Assembly: GCA_000830175.1 (NCBI GenBank)
Contig: JQIS01000010.1
Span: forward strand, 62,001-126,000
Direction of reading: 5' to 3'
From: Sulfurovum sp. FS08-3
Lineage (GTDB): Bacteria > Campylobacterota > Campylobacteria > Campylobacterales > Sulfurovaceae
Length of the DNA stretch: 64,000 nucleotides
In this document: positions 7,678-46,206 of the stretch, piece by piece
Position numbering within the stretch: position 1 is the stretch's first letter
Layout of the letters: every line of letters begins with the position of its first letter
Made by a program: the position numbers and the translations under genes
The notes under the pieces: generated by a model
Database searches by the model: none
What the model was told of the DNA's origin: nothing
The model's input: the letters and a program-made list of their open reading frames with translations, nothing else

Positions 7678-8466
7678 TTATAGGTAATCTTTGTCACTTA
7701 GGGGCTTTGCGTTTGGGTTGGTGGCGATTTTGTGTGCCATATCAATTTTTTTGATGTTGTGCAGTGGATTGAGTGAGGCGATAGTGGCGTTGCGAACGGC
7801 TTTGTTTTGGAGCAAATAGATGTTGAAACCATTTTCAAAGAGTGCCAAACGGGTTGCAATCGCCGTCGAATAGGTCGTAAGGATACCATCATTGGTCAAA
7901 AGCCTAGCAATATCGGCAAAATACTCACACGTCCACAACAAAGGGTTGGTTTTGGGAGAGAAAGCATCTTGATAGACAATGTCAAATTTTTGCGTAAGTT
8001 TGGGAATGCTTTCACGAGCATCACCCAGTAGAATGTTAATATCTACTCTTGGATTATGATAGGTTAGTTCTTTGGAGAGGGTGATAATAGTCTCTTTGAG
8101 GTTTTCAAACTCTTTGGGGTAGTGAAAATCTTTGAGTGAGCCGATGAGTTCTAGGTCAAATTCGGGCGAAACAATCTCAACGCTAATATCCAATTGATGC
8201 TTTTGGATATAATAAAGCGTCGCCAATGTATTGTACCCCAATCCAAAGCAGACATCCAAAATACGCAGATGTTTTTTGTGAGCATTCAACGCAAAAGCGG
8301 GGATAATATGTTTGTGAAGCGACTCGCTTAATGCCCCATCGTGGGTAGAGTGATAATGCTCTCTAAACTCATGCGAATAGAGCGTAGGGCTTCCATCGTG
8401 AGTTACTACAGACTCTTTGTGTGAACGTAGGGTTGGATTGTAAGGCTGGTTGTTACTCTTTTTCAT
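7678..8466 (-). CDS. mnmD: tRNA U34 5-aminomethyl methyltransferase-like protein (MnmD, DUF752)
   Basis: A 262-residue SAM-dependent methyltransferase matching the methyltransferase half of MnmC. It shows a Rossmann SAM motif (DVCFGLGYNTLA, about residues 93-104) and the family signature DAFSPKTNPLLWT (about 168-180). It would methylate the aminomethyl group on tRNA wobble uridine. There is no FAD oxidase domain, so this is a stand-alone MnmD. The start context is unusual: a TATAAT on the minus strand lies only 6 bases before the ATG, which would fit a very short or absent leader. Confidence 0.82.
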   Translation of the reverse strand: MKKSNNQPYNPTLRSHKESVVTHDGSPTLYSHEFREHYHSTHDGALSESLHKHIIPAFALNAHKKHLRILDVCFGLGYNTLATLYYIQKHQLDISVEIVSPEFDLELIGSLKDFHYPKEFENLKETIITLSKELTYHNPRVDINILLGDARESIPKLTQKFDIVYQDAFSPKTNPLLWTCEYFADIARLLTNDGILTTYSTAIATRLALFENGFNIYLLQNKAVRNATIASLNPLHNIKKIDMAHKIATNPNAKPLSDKDYL

Positions 8467-24733: not shown

Positions 24734-25660
24734 TCATATTAGCCCCAACTCCTGCGAAATATCTTTGATGAGTTTGGAGAGTGGGCGTTTGTCTATATCT
24801 TCATCATTTATATATCCACAAGTAATAAGCCTAAGCAAATCTTCTCGATTTTTAAATAAAGTCCCCTCATAATTTTTAAAAAGTTCATCAATGTAGCTAT
24901 CGTTGTAAATTCGTGCTTTTTGGATGAGTTCGAGAATGGTGTCTTTGTGGTTTTGGTATAAATCTTTCAATTCAAAATCATTTAAATTATTTTCTATTCT
25001 ATTTTTCTCATCGGCTGATATTTTTTGATTAAATTTATAGTCTATTTTAAATCCATCTACAGAGTGATAAAAGGTAGCATCTTTGAGTTTGAAGCTAAAT
25101 TTCATATTTTTATTGGGGTCAAATCTCATGTCGTAGGGGTTGATATACTCTTTGTCATCATTATCAAGCTTGATCTTATTACAAACTTTACAGCTTGGGA
25201 TGAGATTGTAGAATGAAATAGCTAAGAATGGATATTTGGACTGCGGATAGAAGTGATCAAGTTCGGAAGTTCGTCTTTTGGTATAGCGTAGATTATAGAT
25301 CGTATTACGATTACAGTATGGGCATACTGTCACACCTAACTTTACAATAAGCTCATAGGCTTGATAGGGTTTATCGTCCTGATCGGTAAATTTATCGCTT
25401 TGATTGAGATAGCTATAGAGAGTCTCAAAATATCCAAAAACATTACAACACTTCGACTTGTACTGATTTGCCAATAGTTCAAGTTCGTGAGGTTTAGCCA
25501 ATATCAGCTTTTGGAAATTCCACTCATTGCCAAAGCAGTTCTGTACCCATTGCTCTACCATAGAAATATTATAGGTACTTCGGTTAACAATATACTTTTT
25601 GATCGCCTGATAATGCTCCTGTGCGATCCTCTCAAGAACGGGGTGTTTGATTTGTGTCAT
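24734..25660 (-). CDS. HNH endonuclease, effector-like (Septu PtuB-type)
   Basis: A 308-residue nuclease. The HNH core has zinc-binding CPYC (Cys113, Cys116) and SCKVC (Cys157, Cys160) knuckles around ELDHFYP (Asp135-His136) and CNKIK (Asn161). The N- and C-terminal regions are helical. It is the last gene of a four-gene set and overlaps the HepT gene by 29 bases. A similar ATPase + HNH arrangement is found in Septu (PtuA/PtuB), although the sequence around the zinc knuckles differs from the PtuB form I know best. I infer it cuts nucleic acid when released by the ATPase. Confidence 0.8.
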   Translation of the reverse strand: MTQIKHPVLERIAQEHYQAIKKYIVNRSTYNISMVEQWVQNCFGNEWNFQKLILAKPHELELLANQYKSKCCNVFGYFETLYSYLNQSDKFTDQDDKPYQAYELIVKLGVTVCPYCNRNTIYNLRYTKRRTSELDHFYPQSKYPFLAISFYNLIPSCKVCNKIKLDNDDKEYINPYDMRFDPNKNMKFSFKLKDATFYHSVDGFKIDYKFNQKISADEKNRIENNLNDFELKDLYQNHKDTILELIQKARIYNDSYIDELFKNYEGTLFKNREDLLRLITCGYINDEDIDKRPLSKLIKDISQELGLI

Positions 25661-25997
25661 TTTGAACTTTCACAAGCTTCTCTTTGAGTTGAGGCAGATA
25701 GTCCCTGACTATATTTTCGATATAGCCTAAATCGACACCTTCGTAGTCATGCACGATATAGTTGCGAGTCAGATAAGCTCCGTTTTGGTCATGCTTTAGG
25801 TTATATTGAGCTATTAGTTCCGTGTCTAGTTTTTTGATAGTTTCGCCTATTTGCGATATGCCCATTAGTATGGACATTTGCCCCTCTATATCTCCGAGTG
25901 CTTGACTCACTCCTCCATGTCTTTGTGTGATAAATTCGATATTGCCAATCATCTCTACGATGAAGTCGATTTTGGCATTGGTGGATTTTTTAGACAT
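25632..25997 (-). CDS. hepT: HepT-like HEPN ribonuclease toxin (DUF86)
   Basis: A 121-residue HEPN protein with the catalytic Rx4HxY motif intact (Arg78, His83, Tyr85 in RNYIVHDY). HepT toxins of the HepT-MntA type are RNases silenced by AMPylation of the Tyr by MntA. It overlaps the MntA gene by 8 bases and the HNH gene by 29 bases. The placement inside an ATPase/HNH operon is unusual. Confidence 0.88.
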   Translation of the reverse strand: MSKKSTNAKIDFIVEMIGNIEFITQRHGGVSQALGDIEGQMSILMGISQIGETIKKLDTELIAQYNLKHDQNGAYLTRNYIVHDYEGVDLGYIENIVRDYLPQLKEKLVKVQNDTNQTPRS

Positions 25998-26301
25998 AGA
26001 CTACCTCGCTCAAAATATATTTTTCACCTGTTTTGGATAGTCCGTTCTTTGAAGCGATATCGACATCTTTATGTATCTCTTTTGAGATCATCTCTTTGAT
26101 CTCATCGAGCTTGGAAAATCCCACAAATCCAGTGTACTTGCCAAAGAACGGCTCTTCCAAATGATACAAGATATCTACATCGCTCTTGTCCGTATAATCT
26201 CCCCTAGCATACGAGCCGAAGATACCGTCGATCACGAAGCCCTCTTTTATAAGGATGGTTTTGAGTTGTTTGATTTTATTGAATATCTGATTTTTTGTCA
26301 T
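25990..26301 (-). CDS. mntA: MntA-like minimal nucleotidyltransferase antitoxin
   Basis: A 103-residue nucleotidyltransferase with the polymerase-beta signature GSYARGDYTDKSDVD (residues 29-43, metal-binding Asp41 and Asp43). MntA modifies HepT with AMP to neutralise it. ATG overlaps the ATPase stop by 4 bases (ATGA), and its own stop lies 8 bases inside hepT, so translation is coupled on both sides. Confidence 0.88.
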   Translation of the reverse strand: MTKNQIFNKIKQLKTILIKEGFVIDGIFGSYARGDYTDKSDVDILYHLEEPFFGKYTGFVGFSKLDEIKEMISKEIHKDVDIASKNGLSKTGEKYILSEVVYV

Positions 26302-28004
26302 CTTTTTAGCTCCTTGAGGGATTGTTTCAAGCGTCTAATATCTTGCTCTATTTTATCAATTTTATCCACTTTTTTCAACCTCTTACTATCGAGCATCCTT
26401 TGGAGTTGGTTTTTGATAATGGGTTCACCGATGATAGAGATAATCTGTTCACAGTGTTTCAATTCACTTTTTGATAGTTTGTCTTTATTCAAAAGTGTGA
26501 TGACCTCATCTATCTTGCTCTTAGCAAACTCCCCCATCAGCCCACCGCTCATAAAGAAACTATCGCTTAGGAGAGTATGGATATTGGCTCCGAAGGTCTG
26601 CTTCTTCTCCACCCCTGCGACTTGTTTGCCATCTTTGAGGAAGATGATGTTTTGTTTGGGGAGGTCAGAGATGAGGAATGGGGAATGAGAAGCAAAAATT
26701 AAATGAAAGTTTTTTGCAGGAATCAATTTTAAAAAGTCTATCATATAACCAATCACTCTTTTTTGCCAGTCAGGATGAAAACCTATATCTATTTCATCTA
26801 ATAAAATAATTAAATCATTAATTTCTTTCTTTTGAATGATTGTGTTTTTGAATGAAAAAAGTTGATTCAAGATAAATAATAATTGTTGTTCTCCAAAACT
26901 TAATTCGTTGAGATTTTTATTATTTTTATCAAACAACTCTATAGCAAAAAATGGATAGCTAAAGGTAGAAAGAATTATATCGACTTCATTTTGATATAAT
27001 TGATTTATATCCCACTTAAAAAATATTTCTCCAGCGTGGACATCCTTAAATGGATTATAACCTATAGATTTAGCAATTTTTACATTTTGATTATCAGATC
27101 GAACATTGAATGACTTAAATGAATTTTGATAACAACGAAAATCTCCCATTCGATTACCTTTATGAAATTGATACAGGTTTTTTTGATATAAACTTTCGGG
27201 TAAATTTCTACCAGAAGCGTTTTTTTTAGCCTCTTTAATAAATTCTTCTGCACTACAATGATTACTTTCAGCATGTGGCATATGTAAAATATATAAAAGG
27301 TTTTCTATTGCTTCGTTTGGTTTATTTTCCTCAAACAAACTGATAGTTTCATCAATTATTTGTTTAAAAGCATTGCCTAGATTTGTATCTAGGTGTTCTA
27401 GTTTTAAATTTTCAATATATGATGTAACAGAAACTTGTATAATGTGGGGAGTGAAATACTTTCCAAATACATGATTTAAATTTTTTTCTTTAATAAACAA
27501 ATAATTGCGTACAATATTTTCTAAATTTTGCTCTAACTCTTCATTGAGATTAATTATTCCATTCAGTTTTTTGGGAAATTGCAATTCACTAAAATTGCCG
27601 ATAGTCTTCTCGTATGTAAAAGAATAATCAAAGATAGGAAATGATATCCTATCCGTATCAATTTTCTTATATTGCTCCTTCCCTATGTATTTCTCTTTAT
27701 CTCCTAAATAATATTTTTCATTAGCACAATCAATAAATATAGCGAATCCATCTTGTCCATCTCGAAGTCGGTTACTGCTTAAAAGGTTTAAAAAAATCAA
27801 CAAACTACTCTTCCCGCTCCCATTCTCCCCCACAATAGCCGTGATATTGATATTGGGAGGGAAGATATCGACGAAGTCGGGATTGTCTTCTATCGTGAGT
27901 TTATTTGATTCATCGTCATACTCACAGCGAAACCTCGGCGAAAAATTAAACCCCTGCTCTTTGATATTTTTATACTCTTCAACCCAAAGATAAACTAATT
28001 CCAT
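26298..28004 (-). CDS. AAA/ABC-type ATPase of a defence operon (Septu PtuA-like)
   Basis: A 568-residue SMC/ABC-like ATPase with Walker A GENGSGKSS (residues 59-67), signature LNELSFGEQQLL (about residue 370), Walker B ILLDEIDIGFHPDW (about residue 400), H-loop FASHSPFLI and a charged C-terminal tail. The central part (about 26700-27700) is clearly more A+T-rich than neighbouring housekeeping genes, which suggests transfer. It is the first gene of the overlapping set ATPase-MntA-HepT-HNH. The likely job is sensing infection and controlling the nuclease(s). Confidence 0.82.
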   Translation of the reverse strand: MELVYLWVEEYKNIKEQGFNFSPRFRCEYDDESNKLTIEDNPDFVDIFPPNINITAIVGENGSGKSSLLIFLNLLSSNRLRDGQDGFAIFIDCANEKYYLGDKEKYIGKEQYKKIDTDRISFPIFDYSFTYEKTIGNFSELQFPKKLNGIINLNEELEQNLENIVRNYLFIKEKNLNHVFGKYFTPHIIQVSVTSYIENLKLEHLDTNLGNAFKQIIDETISLFEENKPNEAIENLLYILHMPHAESNHCSAEEFIKEAKKNASGRNLPESLYQKNLYQFHKGNRMGDFRCYQNSFKSFNVRSDNQNVKIAKSIGYNPFKDVHAGEIFFKWDINQLYQNEVDIILSTFSYPFFAIELFDKNNKNLNELSFGEQQLLFILNQLFSFKNTIIQKKEINDLIILLDEIDIGFHPDWQKRVIGYMIDFLKLIPAKNFHLIFASHSPFLISDLPKQNIIFLKDGKQVAGVEKKQTFGANIHTLLSDSFFMSGGLMGEFAKSKIDEVITLLNKDKLSKSELKHCEQIISIIGEPIIKNQLQRMLDSKRLKKVDKIDKIEQDIRRLKQSLKELKR

Positions 28005-28186: not shown

Positions 28187-28642
28187 TTAAACCCTCTCTA
28201 TTTGGTGAATGAGTAGATTGCGACTGTAGCTACTCTCTTTGGTTTTTTGTATATAAAAGATTGCTTCTTTGATGCTTTTACTCTTTTGTATAATAGCGAT
28301 ATTGTGTCCCCATGGTATCTCAACCAATTGTGAAACAACTTGTTTCGCAATTGCATCATCTTGAGAATAGAAAAGATACCACTTTCGTATAAGCTCTAAG
28401 TTTCTTTTGGAAAAGCCTTTCATGGTGGGAAACTCTTTTGATAAATCTTGGCTCATTTGAGTCAAAAAACCACTGCCCCAATGAGTATCTTTTTGTTTGG
28501 CTACAATATCAGCTCCCAACTCCCAATAAAATTGAAGCAGTTCACTATTGACTTTGAGAGAGGCTTTTATTTGAACTTGTCGTACTCTGTTTTTAATACT
28601 TTGTAGAAACTCTTGATACTCTTGGCTTTGGATGTTTGACAT
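28187..28642 (-). pseudogene. Truncated YhcG/DUF1016 nuclease (N-terminal domain only)
   Basis: The 151-residue frame matches the DUF1016 N-terminal domain (LLQFYWELGADIV-type helix, FPTMKGFSKRNLELIRKWY, then VEIPWGHNIAII). Full-length YhcG proteins are about 340 residues, with a PD-(D/E)XK nuclease domain that is missing here. The frame stops exactly where the linker to the nuclease domain would begin. The first ten codons are duplicated just upstream. It is probably a leftover from insertion or deletion next to the ATPase operon. Confidence 0.75.
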
Positions 28643-30689: not shown

Positions 30690-31556
30690 TTATTGTTTAA
30701 ATAAATTCTTATTCATTTGAAGACTCCAATTGAACAAAGAGTTGTAAAGTTGAGAATTTTTAAAATACTCCATCGAATAAGCAACTCGTAAAGCTTTTTC
30801 TATCTCATTTCCATTAAAGCTTTTTAATAAATATTTGGCAATCAATTTTGTTACATCGTGTCCGCAAGATATTTGCAATTTATCCATTGATAACCTTTGT
30901 AAATCCTCTATTGTCTCTTGTAAACTTTGTGACGTTAAGGATAAATTTGCATTTTTATTTCTCGAATGTTCCAAAAGTGTTTTTAAAAAACTCTCTTGAT
31001 TAAAATTCACTCCTGTACTCCCTTGTTGAATAAAAGAACCGAAATTCAAGCCCTCAAATAATAAAGTATTATTGCCTTGTTTGTGATTAAACCATCGCAA
31101 ATAACCAATAGTTATCGCAGTATCATAAATGTTGTCTTTAAGATTTGAAAAAAACGCCGAGTTATTTGATTGAGTATGAGCATATTCACAAATAAGTGCT
31201 TCTAGTGCATCAGATTCTATCATCGAGATTTCTATATCATGATAATCAGTCATAAATAAATTTTCTATCGTTTGGGTATTTTCCAAATGGTCAAAATCGG
31301 CATCTTTGATACCAATGACGTGTTGATAGCCCTCTTCTTGAAGTTTTTGAAGGGCTTGAATGACTTTCTTATTTCCATTAAGTGATTCAACCTCAACGCA
31401 ATTCAAATCAAAGAGCTTTTTGAATAATCTAATATCTGTTTCACCCTCTAATAATACTAAAACTTTCTCTTCATTAGAGGGATGTTTAAGTATTAATCGA
31501 ATAGCTACCAACTTAGATGACAACTCATTGGAGGTTTCTCTTAGGCTATTGGACAA
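30690..31556 (-). CDS. ariB: AriB-like DUF4435 (TOPRIM) effector of a PARIS-type defence pair
   Basis: A 288-residue DUF4435 protein. The TOPRIM-like core is visible: VLVLLEGETDIRLF (Glu38), then IGIKDADFDHL (Asp85, Asp87, Asp89) and a later DIEISMIES strand. I accept a TTG start at 31556 because GGAGGAG lies 7 bases upstream, inside the ariA end, and the genes overlap by 11 bases. In PARIS, AriB is a nuclease released by the AriA ATPase when an anti-restriction protein is sensed. The pair is A+T-rich and inserted between rpiB and lepB. Confidence 0.8.
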   Translation of the reverse strand: MSNSLRETSNELSSKLVAIRLILKHPSNEEKVLVLLEGETDIRLFKKLFDLNCVEVESLNGNKKVIQALQKLQEEGYQHVIGIKDADFDHLENTQTIENLFMTDYHDIEISMIESDALEALICEYAHTQSNNSAFFSNLKDNIYDTAITIGYLRWFNHKQGNNTLLFEGLNFGSFIQQGSTGVNFNQESFLKTLLEHSRNKNANLSLTSQSLQETIEDLQRLSMDKLQISCGHDVTKLIAKYLLKSFNGNEIEKALRVAYSMEYFKNSQLYNSLFNWSLQMNKNLFKQ

Positions 31557-32868
31557 TCTCAGACTCCTCCAAATTAACGGTCAAATCCCACCTCTCATCA
31601 ATAATAAAAGGTGAATGCGTTGCAATAACAATATCCATCTTTTGGAGTTTGATAATATCTTCAATATCTTTCAAAAATGCTTTTTGCCATACAACATGGA
31701 GTGATATTTCAGGCTCATCAAGAAGCACCAAAGAGTTCTCTTGTACTTTAAACAAAAGCTCAAAAAGCAAAACAACCTCATGCTGTTCACCCGATGAGAG
31801 GTCGGTAAGTTTTAAAATATCACCTTTTTTTGTTTTGAAGATAAAGCCTTTTTCTTTGTCTATTTCAATGGATTTAAAATTAAAGCGTCGTTCATTGAGA
31901 ATATCACTAAAAAGTTCTATTTTTTGAATGAGTGCATCAAATACAGAGAGTTTTTGCTCATTATCTGCAATATACAGTGACAAAACCTTTGTTTCGCTCT
32001 CTTCAATACTATCATTTGAAAAGAGTGAGGTATCATCATCAAGTTTCAACAACCCATATTCAGATATCTTTTGTCGTTTTTCTTGTAGATTATTGAGTTT
32101 ATCTTTGAGTTCATCAACAGAGTAGGAGTGACTATTTTGCCCAAAAAGTCTTTTGGGAAAGCTACTATCGAGCGATTGGGTAATTTGTGCATATTCACCA
32201 ATCTTTTGTTTAATCAGTTTACTTAACTCTTGAGAGTATTTTTCTATTGTATCGGTGATAACTACATTTTCTCTCATACGATGGTCAGAGATTGGTTTTC
32301 TTAAAATCAAGCGTTGTTCTTGAATAAAATAGACGCTCATCTCTTTCAAGAAACTACTTATCTCCTTGGGAATATTACCATTAATGCGTTCTAATATCTC
32401 ATCTGGAAATTCATCATTATACTGCTCTAATATCTCTTGGGTTGTTAATCGTTCACCTGATAATTCATGAAGCCATCGATCAGCTCCTACTCTTCGTATA
32501 AACGGTGGTGTGAAATCTTCGATTATATGAGAGGGTATCGTATGTCTTATCTCTTTTTCCATCTCTTTTGTTGGGTAATGAAATATTGTTGCTTTGTTAT
32601 TTTTCTTTCTTAATATAAACTCTATTTTATCTTTTTTTTGTATCTCTAGTGTGTCATGATTCTTAAAAGTAAAAATAATTTTATCAAATACTAATTTAGT
32701 AAAAAATACAAATTTGTTATTAAATAAACTATAGATTATTTTAAGAGCTATTGTTTTGCCATAGCCATTGGGAGCAGTAAGAATGGTGATTCGCTCATCT
32801 TGATTTAAATCAATATCGTGATTAAAAGTTCCAAACAAACTATAGATTTTGACATTTAAAAGTTTCAT
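31546..32868 (-). CDS. ariA: AriA-like ATPase of a PARIS-type defence pair
   Basis: A 440-residue ABC/OLD-like ATPase. It has Walker A in TAPNGYGKT (residues 31-39, with Ala in place of the first Gly), a long coiled-coil middle (about 200-300), signature LSSGEQHEVVLL, Walker B SLVLLDEPEISLH and H-loop IATHSPFII. It is followed by the DUF4435 partner with an 11-base overlap, the AriA-AriB order. The pairing is what supports PARIS rather than a generic ATPase. The trigger specificity cannot be read from sequence. Confidence 0.8.
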   Translation of the reverse strand: MKLLNVKIYSLFGTFNHDIDLNQDERITILTAPNGYGKTIALKIIYSLFNNKFVFFTKLVFDKIIFTFKNHDTLEIQKKDKIEFILRKKNNKATIFHYPTKEMEKEIRHTIPSHIIEDFTPPFIRRVGADRWLHELSGERLTTQEILEQYNDEFPDEILERINGNIPKEISSFLKEMSVYFIQEQRLILRKPISDHRMRENVVITDTIEKYSQELSKLIKQKIGEYAQITQSLDSSFPKRLFGQNSHSYSVDELKDKLNNLQEKRQKISEYGLLKLDDDTSLFSNDSIEESETKVLSLYIADNEQKLSVFDALIQKIELFSDILNERRFNFKSIEIDKEKGFIFKTKKGDILKLTDLSSGEQHEVVLLFELLFKVQENSLVLLDEPEISLHVVWQKAFLKDIEDIIKLQKMDIVIATHSPFIIDERWDLTVNLEESEIVQ

Positions 32869-41983: not shown

Positions 41984-44900
41984 TTAATAATCTTCCATAA
42001 AGTTTCTTCGTTTTTCATTTTTAATCTTTGTTTCTATCTCTTTAATGATATTTTGTACTTTTAGTCTGTGTCGAATAAATGTCACCCCCGATAAAAGACT
42101 TTCAAAGGATTGAAGATACTCTTTGTATTGTTCTAAGCTTGGAACCATACTGTTGCCACGCCAACTCCAAGAATAGGGTTTATAAAAAACTTTATCAAAT
42201 AGTTCAAATGAGTCATTACACTCTAAAAAATATGGTATCCACTCTTTTTTTGCTCATATGGGTATTCATCAATAAACTTAAATATAAACTTGCTACGCTC
42301 TTCATCTGTAGCATACTTTTGGATAAGTTTTTTGATTGTTGTATTAACCTTTTCCTCGCCTATTTCTTTATCTTCAAAAAAGGATTTAAGCTCTTTACTA
42401 TCAATATAATGATTTTTTTGATAAATTTTAAAAAAAGTCTCTACTAATCTAAAGATAATACGCTCATAATCTTCTCTCTCCCAAATTATGGAAAATTCAC
42501 GATTAACACTGTGATTAGAAGATGAAAAGCCTTGTTTATCATAATGGTGATAGATGTAATCTTCAATAAATAAGTCATCCATAGTGAGTATTTTATTAAA
42601 AATAGTATAGTCATAATCACGATCATATTCGTGGTTCGCTGTATGTAAAAAATAGAGTTCTTTAAGTAAGTCGATATTATTTTCAAAATACATTTCTAAG
42701 TTTTTATAGATATTTGTATTTGGATTAAAGATACCACTTAATAGGCTAATAAAGCTTTCCTCTTCGTTCTTAATTCGCTTATATACAATATCAACAATCT
42801 CTTGAAATATCGTTGGTTTGATATGCATATATTTTTCAATGAAGTCAGAAGATGGAATATTAAGTATTGATTGTGTAGAACGATAAAAATCTAACAGTTG
42901 CTTGACTTCATATTCGCCTATTTGCTCTTGTGATAATAAATAAAAAAAGTTTAACAGAGATGCATCTTTGTTTTGGCAATCGTATTGATTGATAAGTTTA
43001 TAGGCTTCCTCTTTACCTAAAGTTTCTATTAAATGAAAAACATTGATATCAAGGGAGAGTTTGTTACCTGATTTTAAAGACTCTTTAATGACTTCAATAT
43101 ACAATTTTTGGTTATAAATTACGAGTTCACTAAGTGCATACTCTATATTATTTGTTCTTATTCTATCGTTTATTCTTATTGATAAATTCAAGAGATATTT
43201 CCAATCTTTAAATTTATACTCTTTAAAGAAACTCCATAATCTTCCTTTCAATTCTTCTTCAATAGCTTTCCGATCATGTTTTTCTTCTTCTTTTTCGAGA
43301 GCAATACTTACTTTATCTAAGAGCAATACTTTTTCAATTACATAATCTTTATGATTAAATATATTACGAATTTCTTGCTGATATTCCATCTTGCGGTTGT
43401 CCAAAAAATCTAAAAAGTGTTGCATGATTGAACACTCTTCATAATTAGTTATATCAAAAGTTGTTTGCATAAAATTGAGTATTTGTTCGCTATCCCATTG
43501 CTCTATCTCTGTAATACCAATATGAATACTTATTCCTTTGGGATATATTGAAATAAGTGTAAAAATATCATCTTTGTAGTTTTTCTTATCATACAACGAA
43601 AAGACTCTATCTAAAACAGTTTTGCGTAGTTCTTTTAATTCATCTGTTTGAGCAGGTTTATAGTGGATTGTTTGGATTGTATTTTTGTTCTTTTTTACTA
43701 GAGTATCTTGAAATTCTGTTTTTAGTAGCTCACTAGATACTCTAATAAAGAGTTTCGTTATTAAAATATTTTCTCCATTTTGAGTAAAATTCCATAAAGT
43801 ATCTATTAAGTGCTTCTCTTTTGAATATTCATAATGATGACTATCTTTCTTGTAGGTAAAATTTTTTGTTAAAATGCTAATAGTTGCAGATAACTGTAAA
43901 GGCTCTTTTTCTAAATATTTAATAATTAGTTCTATTGCAGATGAAATATTTTCATTATCATTGCCAAAAAAAGATAATATTTCTAAAATTTCATTATTTA
44001 AATAACTACTTTTATCTTTCCAAAAATCCAATGAATCTACGTCAACAACTTGCTGTTGCACTTTTTCTATTTTATCATTCACATAGACCAAGGTATCAGT
44101 TTTTTTCATAAACCAAAAGAGCCTTATAGCTTCTAATAAGTTTGTTTTATCGTTATAATATTTACTCCATAGGTTATCAATAGAGCTTTGTAGTACTTCT
44201 TTAATGGTATCATGGTTAAAAGTTTCAATAATTGGATTTAAAGTATCAATAAATCGTTGTTTGTATTTAGGAAAGAAGTTATCCAATAAAAGATAAAAAT
44301 TAATTTGCTTCTCCACAAACACAATTTTATAAAAAAGATAAGTAGATAAAATTTGGTCAGATACCTTTACAACTTCATTTTGGTACAAATCCACTATCTC
44401 TAAACGATTAAGTTTTACTACTTGCTCCCAAAAATCCTTGGAGGATATGCTAAAAACTTTTTCAATTAATTGCATCTGTTCGTCGTGAGATTTATCAACA
44501 GCTCTAAAAAATGAGATAACCGTAAGAGATACAACTTGATTATGGTTATTTAAAATATCTATATCATCTTTGACACTTTTAAAATACTCATCATATATTT
44601 TAGTAGCATCGTAGATTGATTTTAGACTTTTTGTCTCTTTAGCAACCCTAGCAGCCATTAAAGCAAGTCTTGGATTACCTTGAGAAACCCGCCAAATTTG
44701 TTCATGATAGTCAGGATTTTTGATTTGATATATATCTTCTACGAGACTTGTTATCTCTTTTTCGTCAAATGGTTTAAGTTCTATCTCTGCTTTACTAATA
44801 AGTGTGGGGATTTTATCAAAAGTTGCTTTTTGAGCATAATCTCTAACCGTAGCTACAATTTTAATTTGATGATTATTGATTTTGTGTTTATGATAATTTA

Positions 44901-45732
44901 AAATATAATCCAAAACTTGATAGACTCTATTAATATCATCAATCAAAATAAGATATTTTTTATCATCCCCAAAATAGGCTTTTATATCATCAAATAAATC
45001 CACACTTTTATTGAATATAGCTTTAAAAATATATTGATTGTTTTTAGCATAACTTTGGCACTCTTCTAATGCAAATTTTGTTTTGCCTACTCCTGCCTTT
45101 CCTGTTATAAAAAGTATTTGATTGCTATCTAGCAACTCATAGAATTGTTTTTTTTCATCCTCTCTAAATTTAAATTGATTATTTAGTTTCGTTGTATATC
45201 TGCTACTGTCATCATAAGTCTTTATAAAATCATCATAATCTAAAATTTGATTGGTATCGATTTCTATATTTAAAAAGTCTTTAGCTACTTTTGCATAGTT
45301 ATTATTAATATCAATGCTCATCATCGAATTTGTCAAAATTTCACATTGATTAACCCTATGCTCTTTGCATCTGTTTTGAAGAGTCTCTATATCGGATAGT
45401 TTCAAATTTCTGTTACAAGCCAATATAATTTTTTCTATTTGTGATACGGCTATGCCTGTCTTGGATTCATTAAAACATTTATCTAAATCTTCTAATAACT
45501 TCTCTAATATTCCCGTTTCTCTAGTTGTATATTCCATAAATAGATATTGACCATTGTCAAGTATAGCAAAACTATCAGGAGTACCAGTAGTTGATTTATC
45601 TTCTCCAAGCTTTGTCCCATTTGACTGTATTATATAACCATATTTTTTATTAAGATAGTTATCAACAAGTTTATGAAACTTAGTAGCATCCATTTCAATT
45701 AAAGTTTTTTCAATTTGGTTGATTTTACTCAT
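41984..45732 (-). CDS. Nuclease-STAND NTPase (Avs-like, nSTAND3 type), interrupted by a -1 frameshift site
   Basis: The main frame (42223-45732) gives 1169 residues. An N-terminal PD-(D/E)XK-like domain has GTPDSFAI (Asp53) and FMEYTTRE (Glu68). A STAND NTPase follows, with Walker A GKAGVGKT (211-218) and Walker B ILIDDINRV (Asp265/266), then a long helical sensor region. The frame ends in TAG soon after CAA AAA AAG (42244-42252). In the -1 frame, reading on from the A7 run gives 86 more residues (EWIPYFLECND to NFMEDY, stop 41984-41986) with a strongly coding look (PYSWSWRGNSMVPSLEQY), which I judge to be the natural C-terminus. The slip site is a perfect A AAA AAG heptamer. Programmed frameshift, phase variation, decay and sequencing error are all possible. 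The remaining bases to 41842 hold nothing evident. Confidence 0.8.
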
Positions 45733-45744
45733 ATTGTTTTAAAT

Positions 45745-46206
45745 CTACTCTCCAAATTCTCGTAAAATTGTCTCAAGTAAATGTTTTGATATAAATAGAT
45801 TTGAGTTTTGTAGTTTTTCTAAATCATCTTTGATGGATGAGATGAAATTTTTCTCTTTTGCCAATATCAAAACACCCAATGAGCCAATCACATTTACACC
45901 ATTAAGCTGTGCAAAACTTTTGGCTCGTTTATCATCAATCAATAAAAAGTCGGCATTCATATCTTTATAGAGCCGTATGGCTTCAAGTTCGCCTTGCCCC
46001 AAACCCATTTTACTAATATCGAGTTCTACTTTTTTGACTCTATTGGCTAAAAATATTTTAAGTTTACTGCTTTGTGGTTTTTGTGTAATGGTCACTTCAT
46101 CATAAACGGCTTGTGGTACATAGATGGTATCAAAAATCTTTTCAAGTAACTCCAATCTATCCATCGTAGCCAAAGCCACAAGAGCTGAACTATCCCCTAT
46201 AATCAC
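45745..46206 (-). CDS. DUF3368 PIN-domain toxin (second)
   Basis: A 153-residue PIN protein with intact first Asp (IIGDSSALVALA), LGQGELEAIRL and DFLLIDDKRAKSFA acidic sites. It forms a 4-base-overlap pair with the UPF0175 gene. It follows the same design as the pair at 36936-37690 but is diverged. Confidence 0.87.
   Translation of the reverse strand: MIIGDSSALVALATMDRLELLEKIFDTIYVPQAVYDEVTITQKPQSSKLKIFLANRVKKVELDISKMGLGQGELEAIRLYKDMNADFLLIDDKRAKSFAQLNGVNVIGSLGVLILAKEKNFISSIKDDLEKLQNSNLFISKHLLETILREFGE

Follow-up and report, generated by a model that had tools for sequence, protein, structure and literature searches.

A MntA/HepT-like module between the ATPase and HNH genes of a PDC-M62 defence locus in Sulfurovum

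Four overlapping genes on one strand

We analysed a 64,000-nucleotide stretch of the Sulfurovum sp. FS08-3 genome (contig JQIS01000010.1, positions 62,001 to 126,000; hereafter the window, with all coordinates counted from its first base), focusing on a locus where genes for a minimal nucleotidyltransferase (MNT) antitoxin and a HepT toxin lie between those for an ATPase and an HNH nuclease. Four intact open reading frames (ORFs) follow one another on the minus strand in the order ATPase (26298..28004, 568 amino acids), MNT (25990..26301, 103 amino acids), HepT (25632..25997, 121 amino acids) and HNH (24734..25660, 308 amino acids). According to the ORF coordinates, the ATPase stop and the MNT start share an ATGA (4 bp, 26298..26301), MNT and HepT overlap by 8 bp, and the end of HepT and the start of HNH overlap by 29 bp (25632..25660), all as claimed in a first-pass annotation of this DNA made from its letters and ORFs. 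That annotation also described intact motifs in all four genes, which motif inspection and alignments of relatives confirmed. The longest overlap exists because the HepT of the window no longer has a stop of its own: its frame continues into the HNH gene and, as a comparison of C termini revealed, its last residues come from the start of that gene, read in another frame. The 29-bp overlap is consistent with a scar left by insertion.

Family assignment of the outer pair

Among PADLOC profiles, the ATPase matched PDC-M62A (E = 1.6e-105, residues 1-565 of 568) and the HNH protein matched PDC-M62B (E = 7.6e-73, residues 14-306 of 308), which places both within this candidate defence system, while the PtuA/PtuB and AriA profiles were far weaker. 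Scores were also far under the curated NCBI cut-offs for Septu, with 43.5 versus 500 bits for the ATPase against PtuA (NF041760) and 20.4 versus 150 bits for the HNH protein against PtuB. Pfam identified AAA_21 and AAA_15 in the ATPase, as expected of an ABC-type PtuA/AriA-like protein, and an HNH domain slightly under its cut-off; TIGR02646 matched the HNH protein below cut-off.

Catalytic motifs were compared with those of 38 relatives in each case. The ATPase carries Walker A (GENGSGKS, residues 59-66, 27807..27830), in which G59, N61, G62, G64 and K65 are invariant, and an equally invariant Walker B region ending in D403 E404 (26793..26813), together with LSFGE, Walker B LLDE and SHSP. The HNH core (C113 P Y C116 ... 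D135 H136 ... N152 ... C157 x x C160, 25181..25324) retains the full CPYC..DH..N..CKVC set, with every core residue invariant except Y115, which is nearly so. An ATPase and an HNH protein with intact Walker and HNH motifs constitute a Septu-type pair, and the nearest solved chains of the ATPase by sequence profile are retron Ec78/Ec83 PtuA, Septu PtuA and AriA. A fold search agreed with this result and serves only to back it up, the ATPase model being weak overall (predicted local distance difference test (pLDDT), 65). The nearest solved relative of the HNH protein is 9n69_F, a TIGR02646 protein of a retron I-A complex (E = 1.3e-4); its AlphaFold2 model was confident (pLDDT 90.8), yet the fold search with it returned no usable match and nothing was concluded from it.

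On this profile and structural evidence, the ATPase and HNH are a Septu/PtuAB-like pair belonging to PDC-M62 and not PtuAB proper, so that the Septu-like character proposed in the first-pass annotation stands. In comparison with Septu PtuA/PtuB and the effectors of retron I-A (Ec78/Eco7, Ec83), with which they share the combination of an ABC-type ATPase and an HNH protein, the window proteins are longer and MNT-HepT is added. Many PDC-M62 and Septu calls have been handled as mutual duplicate annotations in a survey (PMC11811056). The earlier description of the HNH protein as DNA-cutting is not established by these relationships: PtuAB of retron-Eco7 and Septu EcB88 acts on tRNA-Tyr, and cleavage of DNA has been reported for another Septu (PMC11555353, PMC13096335). 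Since these closest studied effectors act on tRNA-Tyr as well as DNA, the HNH protein and HepT may both be RNases. No sign of a retron was seen, with no Rfam match in 24-33.5 kb of the window and no reverse transcriptase-like ORF noticed in 21-32 kb, where selected ORFs were Pfam-scanned and no dedicated reverse transcriptase search was made.

A divergent HepT/MntA pair

The inner genes encode a putative type VII toxin–antitoxin pair. The MNT antitoxin scored above the Pfam cut-off for NTP_transf_2 (PF01909) and matched PDC-S09, and HepT scored above that for HepT-like (PF01934, E = 7e-10), a family of HEPN RNases. Solved-structure matches were to MntA (5yep/7aer) for the former and to HepT (5yep/6m6u) for the latter. 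The two motifs that define the AMPylation-controlled HepT/MntA module (PMC7641770) are encoded side by side, namely GSx10DxD in MNT (residues 29-43, G29 S30..D41 x D43; 26173..26217) and Rx4HxY in HepT (RNYIVHDY, residues 78-85, R78-Y85; 25743..25766), and are conserved across the 4-5 aligned modules. The pair shares both motifs and the MNT-then-HEPN order with known type VII systems (SO_3166/SO_3165 and relatives), from which it differs in being inserted within another operon and in its divergence. NCBIfam equivalog cut-offs were missed by both proteins (31.6 and 25.2 versus 60 bits; NF047752 for MNT), and because of these scores the pair is classed, by sequence, as a divergent HepT/MntA subfamily. 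The inserted MntA/HepT pair of the first-pass annotation is thus borne out by motifs, profiles and structural matches alike.

Away from this locus, the module mostly stands free and is commonly a neighbour of housekeeping genes. Such free-standing relatives sit in operons with genes that we take, by eye from their sequences, to be murG, priA, dxr and valS, sometimes with overlapping ends. In two genomes (L201, L203) the same MNT-HepT subfamily lies just downstream of murG, a possible recurrent landing site. The 8-bp MNT/HepT overlap recurs in 20 of 27 modules, the majority of which do not neighbour M62; it is a trait of the module itself and hence no sign of a composite system.

Recurrence of the four-gene order

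M62B was detected in 71 of 397 Campylobacterota genomes, and the stronger loci of these 71, combined with 80 further relatives from named genomes, gave 130 distinct M62 loci spanning Campylobacterota, Bacteroidota and Bacillota. ATPase and HNH were directly adjacent in 120 of them (median overlap, 4 bp), the others comprising three loci with a long gap, four without an upstream ATPase and three cut by contig ends. All three long-gap loci hold MNT-HepT: the window, where ATPase and HNH depart from the usual adjacency and are 637 bp apart, G122 (L053) and Aliarcobacter sp. STC_124 (L121). A fourth four-gene locus, in G397 (L222/L291), was reached through a search of the HepT subfamily across three families, so that the order occurs outside the window in three Arcobacteraceae genomes and is therefore more than chance. 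Across the 130 loci, no gene other than MNT-HepT was seen at the ATPase/HNH junction, and the module was never found there in Bacteroidota or Bacillota. In G122, the ATPase is split in two frames near a seven-T run (L053, ~8100-8150), reflecting either a sequencing error or slippage.

An assembly or annotation artefact was rejected because of the recurrence of the order in other genomes, including G397, where all four genes share one 3.0-Mb contig. The first-pass annotation had suggested searching genomes for the same order, and had held that its composite system would fall if ATPase and HNH were normally adjacent without MntA/HepT and the arrangement were unique to one strain. The former is the case, but the latter is not, the order recurring in other genera. 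That annotation knew of no description of the arrangement, and we likewise found none for M62 combined with MNT-HepT in the literature searched, which was without most subscription journals and all bioRxiv preprints and in which a single survey mentioned PDC-M62.

Related modules also occur beside M62 without entering the junction. The same MNT-HepT subfamily lies 409 bp upstream of an M62 ATPase in L161, a more distant MNT-HepT (L292, 7554-9448) stops 64 bp short of an M62-type ATPase truncated by a contig end, and a different MNT/HEPN pair is divergent from M62 and 184 bp away in L043. A scan of 59 M62 genomes with PF01934 revealed three loci within 5 kb of M62 (window, G122, G291) versus ~0.6 expected, a weak test of co-location given rough uniform placement and the window itself being one of the three. 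Two degraded M62 loci were also seen, one with the ATPase start fused to HNH via an internal deletion (L096, 5731-6597) and one with an ATPase-less HNH 290 bp after an apparent RelBE-type pair (L094, 6001-6942).

An optional module under purifying selection

One region of the Arcobacteraceae, beside a gene that is presumably luxS (named by eye from its sequence), is a recurrent M62 site in about ten fetched genomes (L031, L034, L036, L050, L082, L084, L119, L121, L147, L291). MNT-HepT is present at this site in L121 and L291, while L050, L031 and others carry M62 without it in flanks ~80-90% identical to those of L121 over kilobases. Since orthologous sites hold M62 both with and without the module, MNT-HepT is optional in place.

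Comparing STC_124 with G397 at this same site, we found MNT and HepT to be 97% identical, with ratios of nonsynonymous to synonymous substitution rates (dN/dS) of 0.058 and 0.055, while the ATPase was only 53% and the HNH protein only 50% identical. Divergence was concentrated in the middle of the ATPase (~10-30% identity) and towards the N terminus of the HNH protein (3-23%), parts which have been replaced and look unrelated, whereas the ends of both proteins were ~90-100% identical. MNT-HepT is under purifying selection and is maintained while the surrounding defence cores are exchanged, which fits a functional module that, judging from these alignments, would be independent of contacts with the variable parts of ATPase and HNH. 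The matched, cassette-like exchange of these variable parts perhaps represents sensor diversification.

More than one entry at the junction

Phylogenies argue against a single origin of the arrangement. A single clade of four-gene loci was rejected by the approximately unbiased (AU) test in the MNT-HepT trees of 97 modules (p-AU 0.0035) and 22 modules (p-AU 1.7e-6), in the HNH tree (p-AU 3.6e-54) and in the ATPase tree (p-AU 0.02). The window MNT-HepT was placed among free-standing modules (sets at 99/96 and 100/99; 97-module tree), which are also its nearest relatives (65% identity), and the three Arcobacteraceae pairs formed a clade of their own beside another free-standing module in the 97-module tree. 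The HNH proteins of the window and G122 were not firmly separable (p-AU 0.064). Because the trees of MNT-HepT, HNH and ATPase all reject one clade, they indicate that the module entered the ATPase/HNH junction at least twice independently, or that parts were swapped repeatedly.

Interpretation

These observations are best, and we think probably, explained by a PDC-M62 defence operon that acquired a mobile, self-contained MntA-HepT cassette at its ATPase/HNH junction. The outer genes are clear PDC-M62 members by profile and gene order, and the locus differs from the PADLOC entry, which lists just A and B, in having MNT and HepT between them. The four-gene locus is real, recurrent and selected, but what it adds to a known kind of system is optional and does not amount to an entirely new one. 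We read MNT-HepT as an accessory AMPylation-controlled toxin–antitoxin cassette kept by selection, not as a dedicated subunit, and it is probably co-transcribed with the ATPase-HNH effector pair. A search for an internal MNT-HepT promoter gave one promoter-like site (26378..26350, minus strand), and such sites were no commoner than in shuffled sequence.

Under this reading, the four proteins would be made from one transcript. By analogy with its family, the ATPase may sense infection, both holding the HNH nuclease and licensing it to act; upon infection the nuclease would cut a nucleic acid of the host or the phage, either DNA or tRNA, halting growth. MntA, produced just before HepT, would AMPylate HepT at Y85 and keep the RNase off, as in characterized HepT/MntA pairs. 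Disturbed operon expression or AMP/ATP supply might then leave unmodified HepT to add a second growth arrest, or to penalise loss of the operon. Sensing, nuclease, AMPylation and RNase activities are thus all predicted from the respective families. We infer that MNT-HepT is expressed along with the outer genes and provides a second arrest or a guard, with its trigger and its benefit as back-up or guard offered as conjecture.

Three points weigh against this interpretation. Genes of Campylobacterota are densely packed, 65% of adjacent same-strand genes in these loci being no more than 30 bp apart; as the module overlap is moreover its own trait, tight packing is weak evidence for any coupling. 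AMPylation is assigned only by analogy, owing to the scores under the NCBI equivalog cut-offs. Finally, repeated acquisition at precisely one junction could signal a functional link more specific than that of an accessory.

Precedents exist for several elements of the cassette interpretation. HEPN toxins have been set out as second-line effectors inside restriction operons (PMC3710099), so the principle is known; PrrC of PrrC-PrrI is likewise a HEPN RNase in a defence operon and a possible second line, but PrrC fuses ABC and HEPN parts and is kept in check by the restriction enzyme, whereas the window HepT has its own antitoxin. CreTA modules (PMC9458426) resemble the window pair in being a toxin–antitoxin within a defence locus (CRISPR-Cas) with a possible guard role, but are RNA-based and Cascade-repressed. 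The arrangement represents a natural, repeated experiment in which two growth-arrest modules were joined in one operon, and the orthologous sites with (L121/L291) and without (L050/L031) the module make it directly testable whether a toxin–antitoxin strengthens, guards or rides a defence system. Payne et al. reportedly treat defences embedded in other defences, which may be relevant here.

A neutral or selfish hitch-hiker, in which an operon-prone mobile MntA-HepT landed by chance and persists for its own sake while adding nothing to defence, appears unlikely. It would account for the close relatives in operons with housekeeping genes, some of them overlapping, and for an 8-bp overlap that belongs to the module. 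Set against this, a HepT-like gene was seen within ~0.5 kb of four of the 130 M62 loci (L053, L121, L161 and L043, three of them independent, with the window and loci found through HepT left out) versus ~0.1 expected; the expectation is rough, assuming uniform placement, and the clustering of defence genes makes the null lenient.

We consider it quite unlikely that the four genes form an integrated composite with MntA/HepT under the physical control of the ATPase (or HNH), such that infection would activate the HNH nuclease and the HepT RNase together or, in a variant with PrrC/PrrI-like logic, HepT would serve as a reserve let loose once a phage blocks the HNH arm. Independent acquisition at this junction on two or more occasions, the other MNT/HEPN modules directly beside M62, the second-line HEPN precedent and the ATPase C-terminal part, which next to the module stays constant while the ATPase middle varies, would all suit such a system. 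However, 120 of 130 M62 loci manage without the module, also at orthologous sites, and MNT-HepT is mostly free-standing and stays constant while the ATPase and HNH cores are replaced, so that any contact would need to involve their conserved ends. The first-pass annotation had taken the tight coupling of the genes to suggest one composite system, which is not borne out, most M62 pairs being without MNT-HepT; the orthologous sites without the module, the free-standing modules and the multiple acquisitions weaken it further. It is equally doubtful that the two arms form a dual-effector system in which the AMPylation of HepT responds to infection or to a phage blocking one arm, a link that would have evolved at least twice. 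A single ancestor with all four genes, from which most lineages later shed MNT-HepT and in which parts were swapped, is very improbable: the window and G122 HNH proteins are hard to separate and ATPase and HNH ends recombine, but the window module sits inside free-standing modules away from the Arcobacteraceae trio, and M62 of Bacteroidota and Bacillota is without MNT-HepT throughout.

Genomic neighbourhood

A phage or plasmid origin of the locus was rejected: we found no DNA match in phages, one protein match at 25% identity and no relatives on viral contigs, and distant ATPases were the only plasmid matches. Directly upstream of the operon lies a 151-amino-acid gene (28187-28642, minus strand) with only the N-terminal domain of DUF1016 (PDC-S02), which is probably a truncated remnant, several full profiles being 200-357 positions long. 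Some 2.7 kb upstream of the operon, beyond ordinary-looking genes, an ATPase and a DUF4435 protein (30690-32868, minus strand) resemble AriA and AriB of PARIS (E = 3.1e-21 and 1.2e-20, respectively). Farther along, a 1169-amino-acid protein with a weak nSTAND3 match lies beside a 153-amino-acid PDC-S70 protein (42223-46206, minus strand), forming a possible defence locus.

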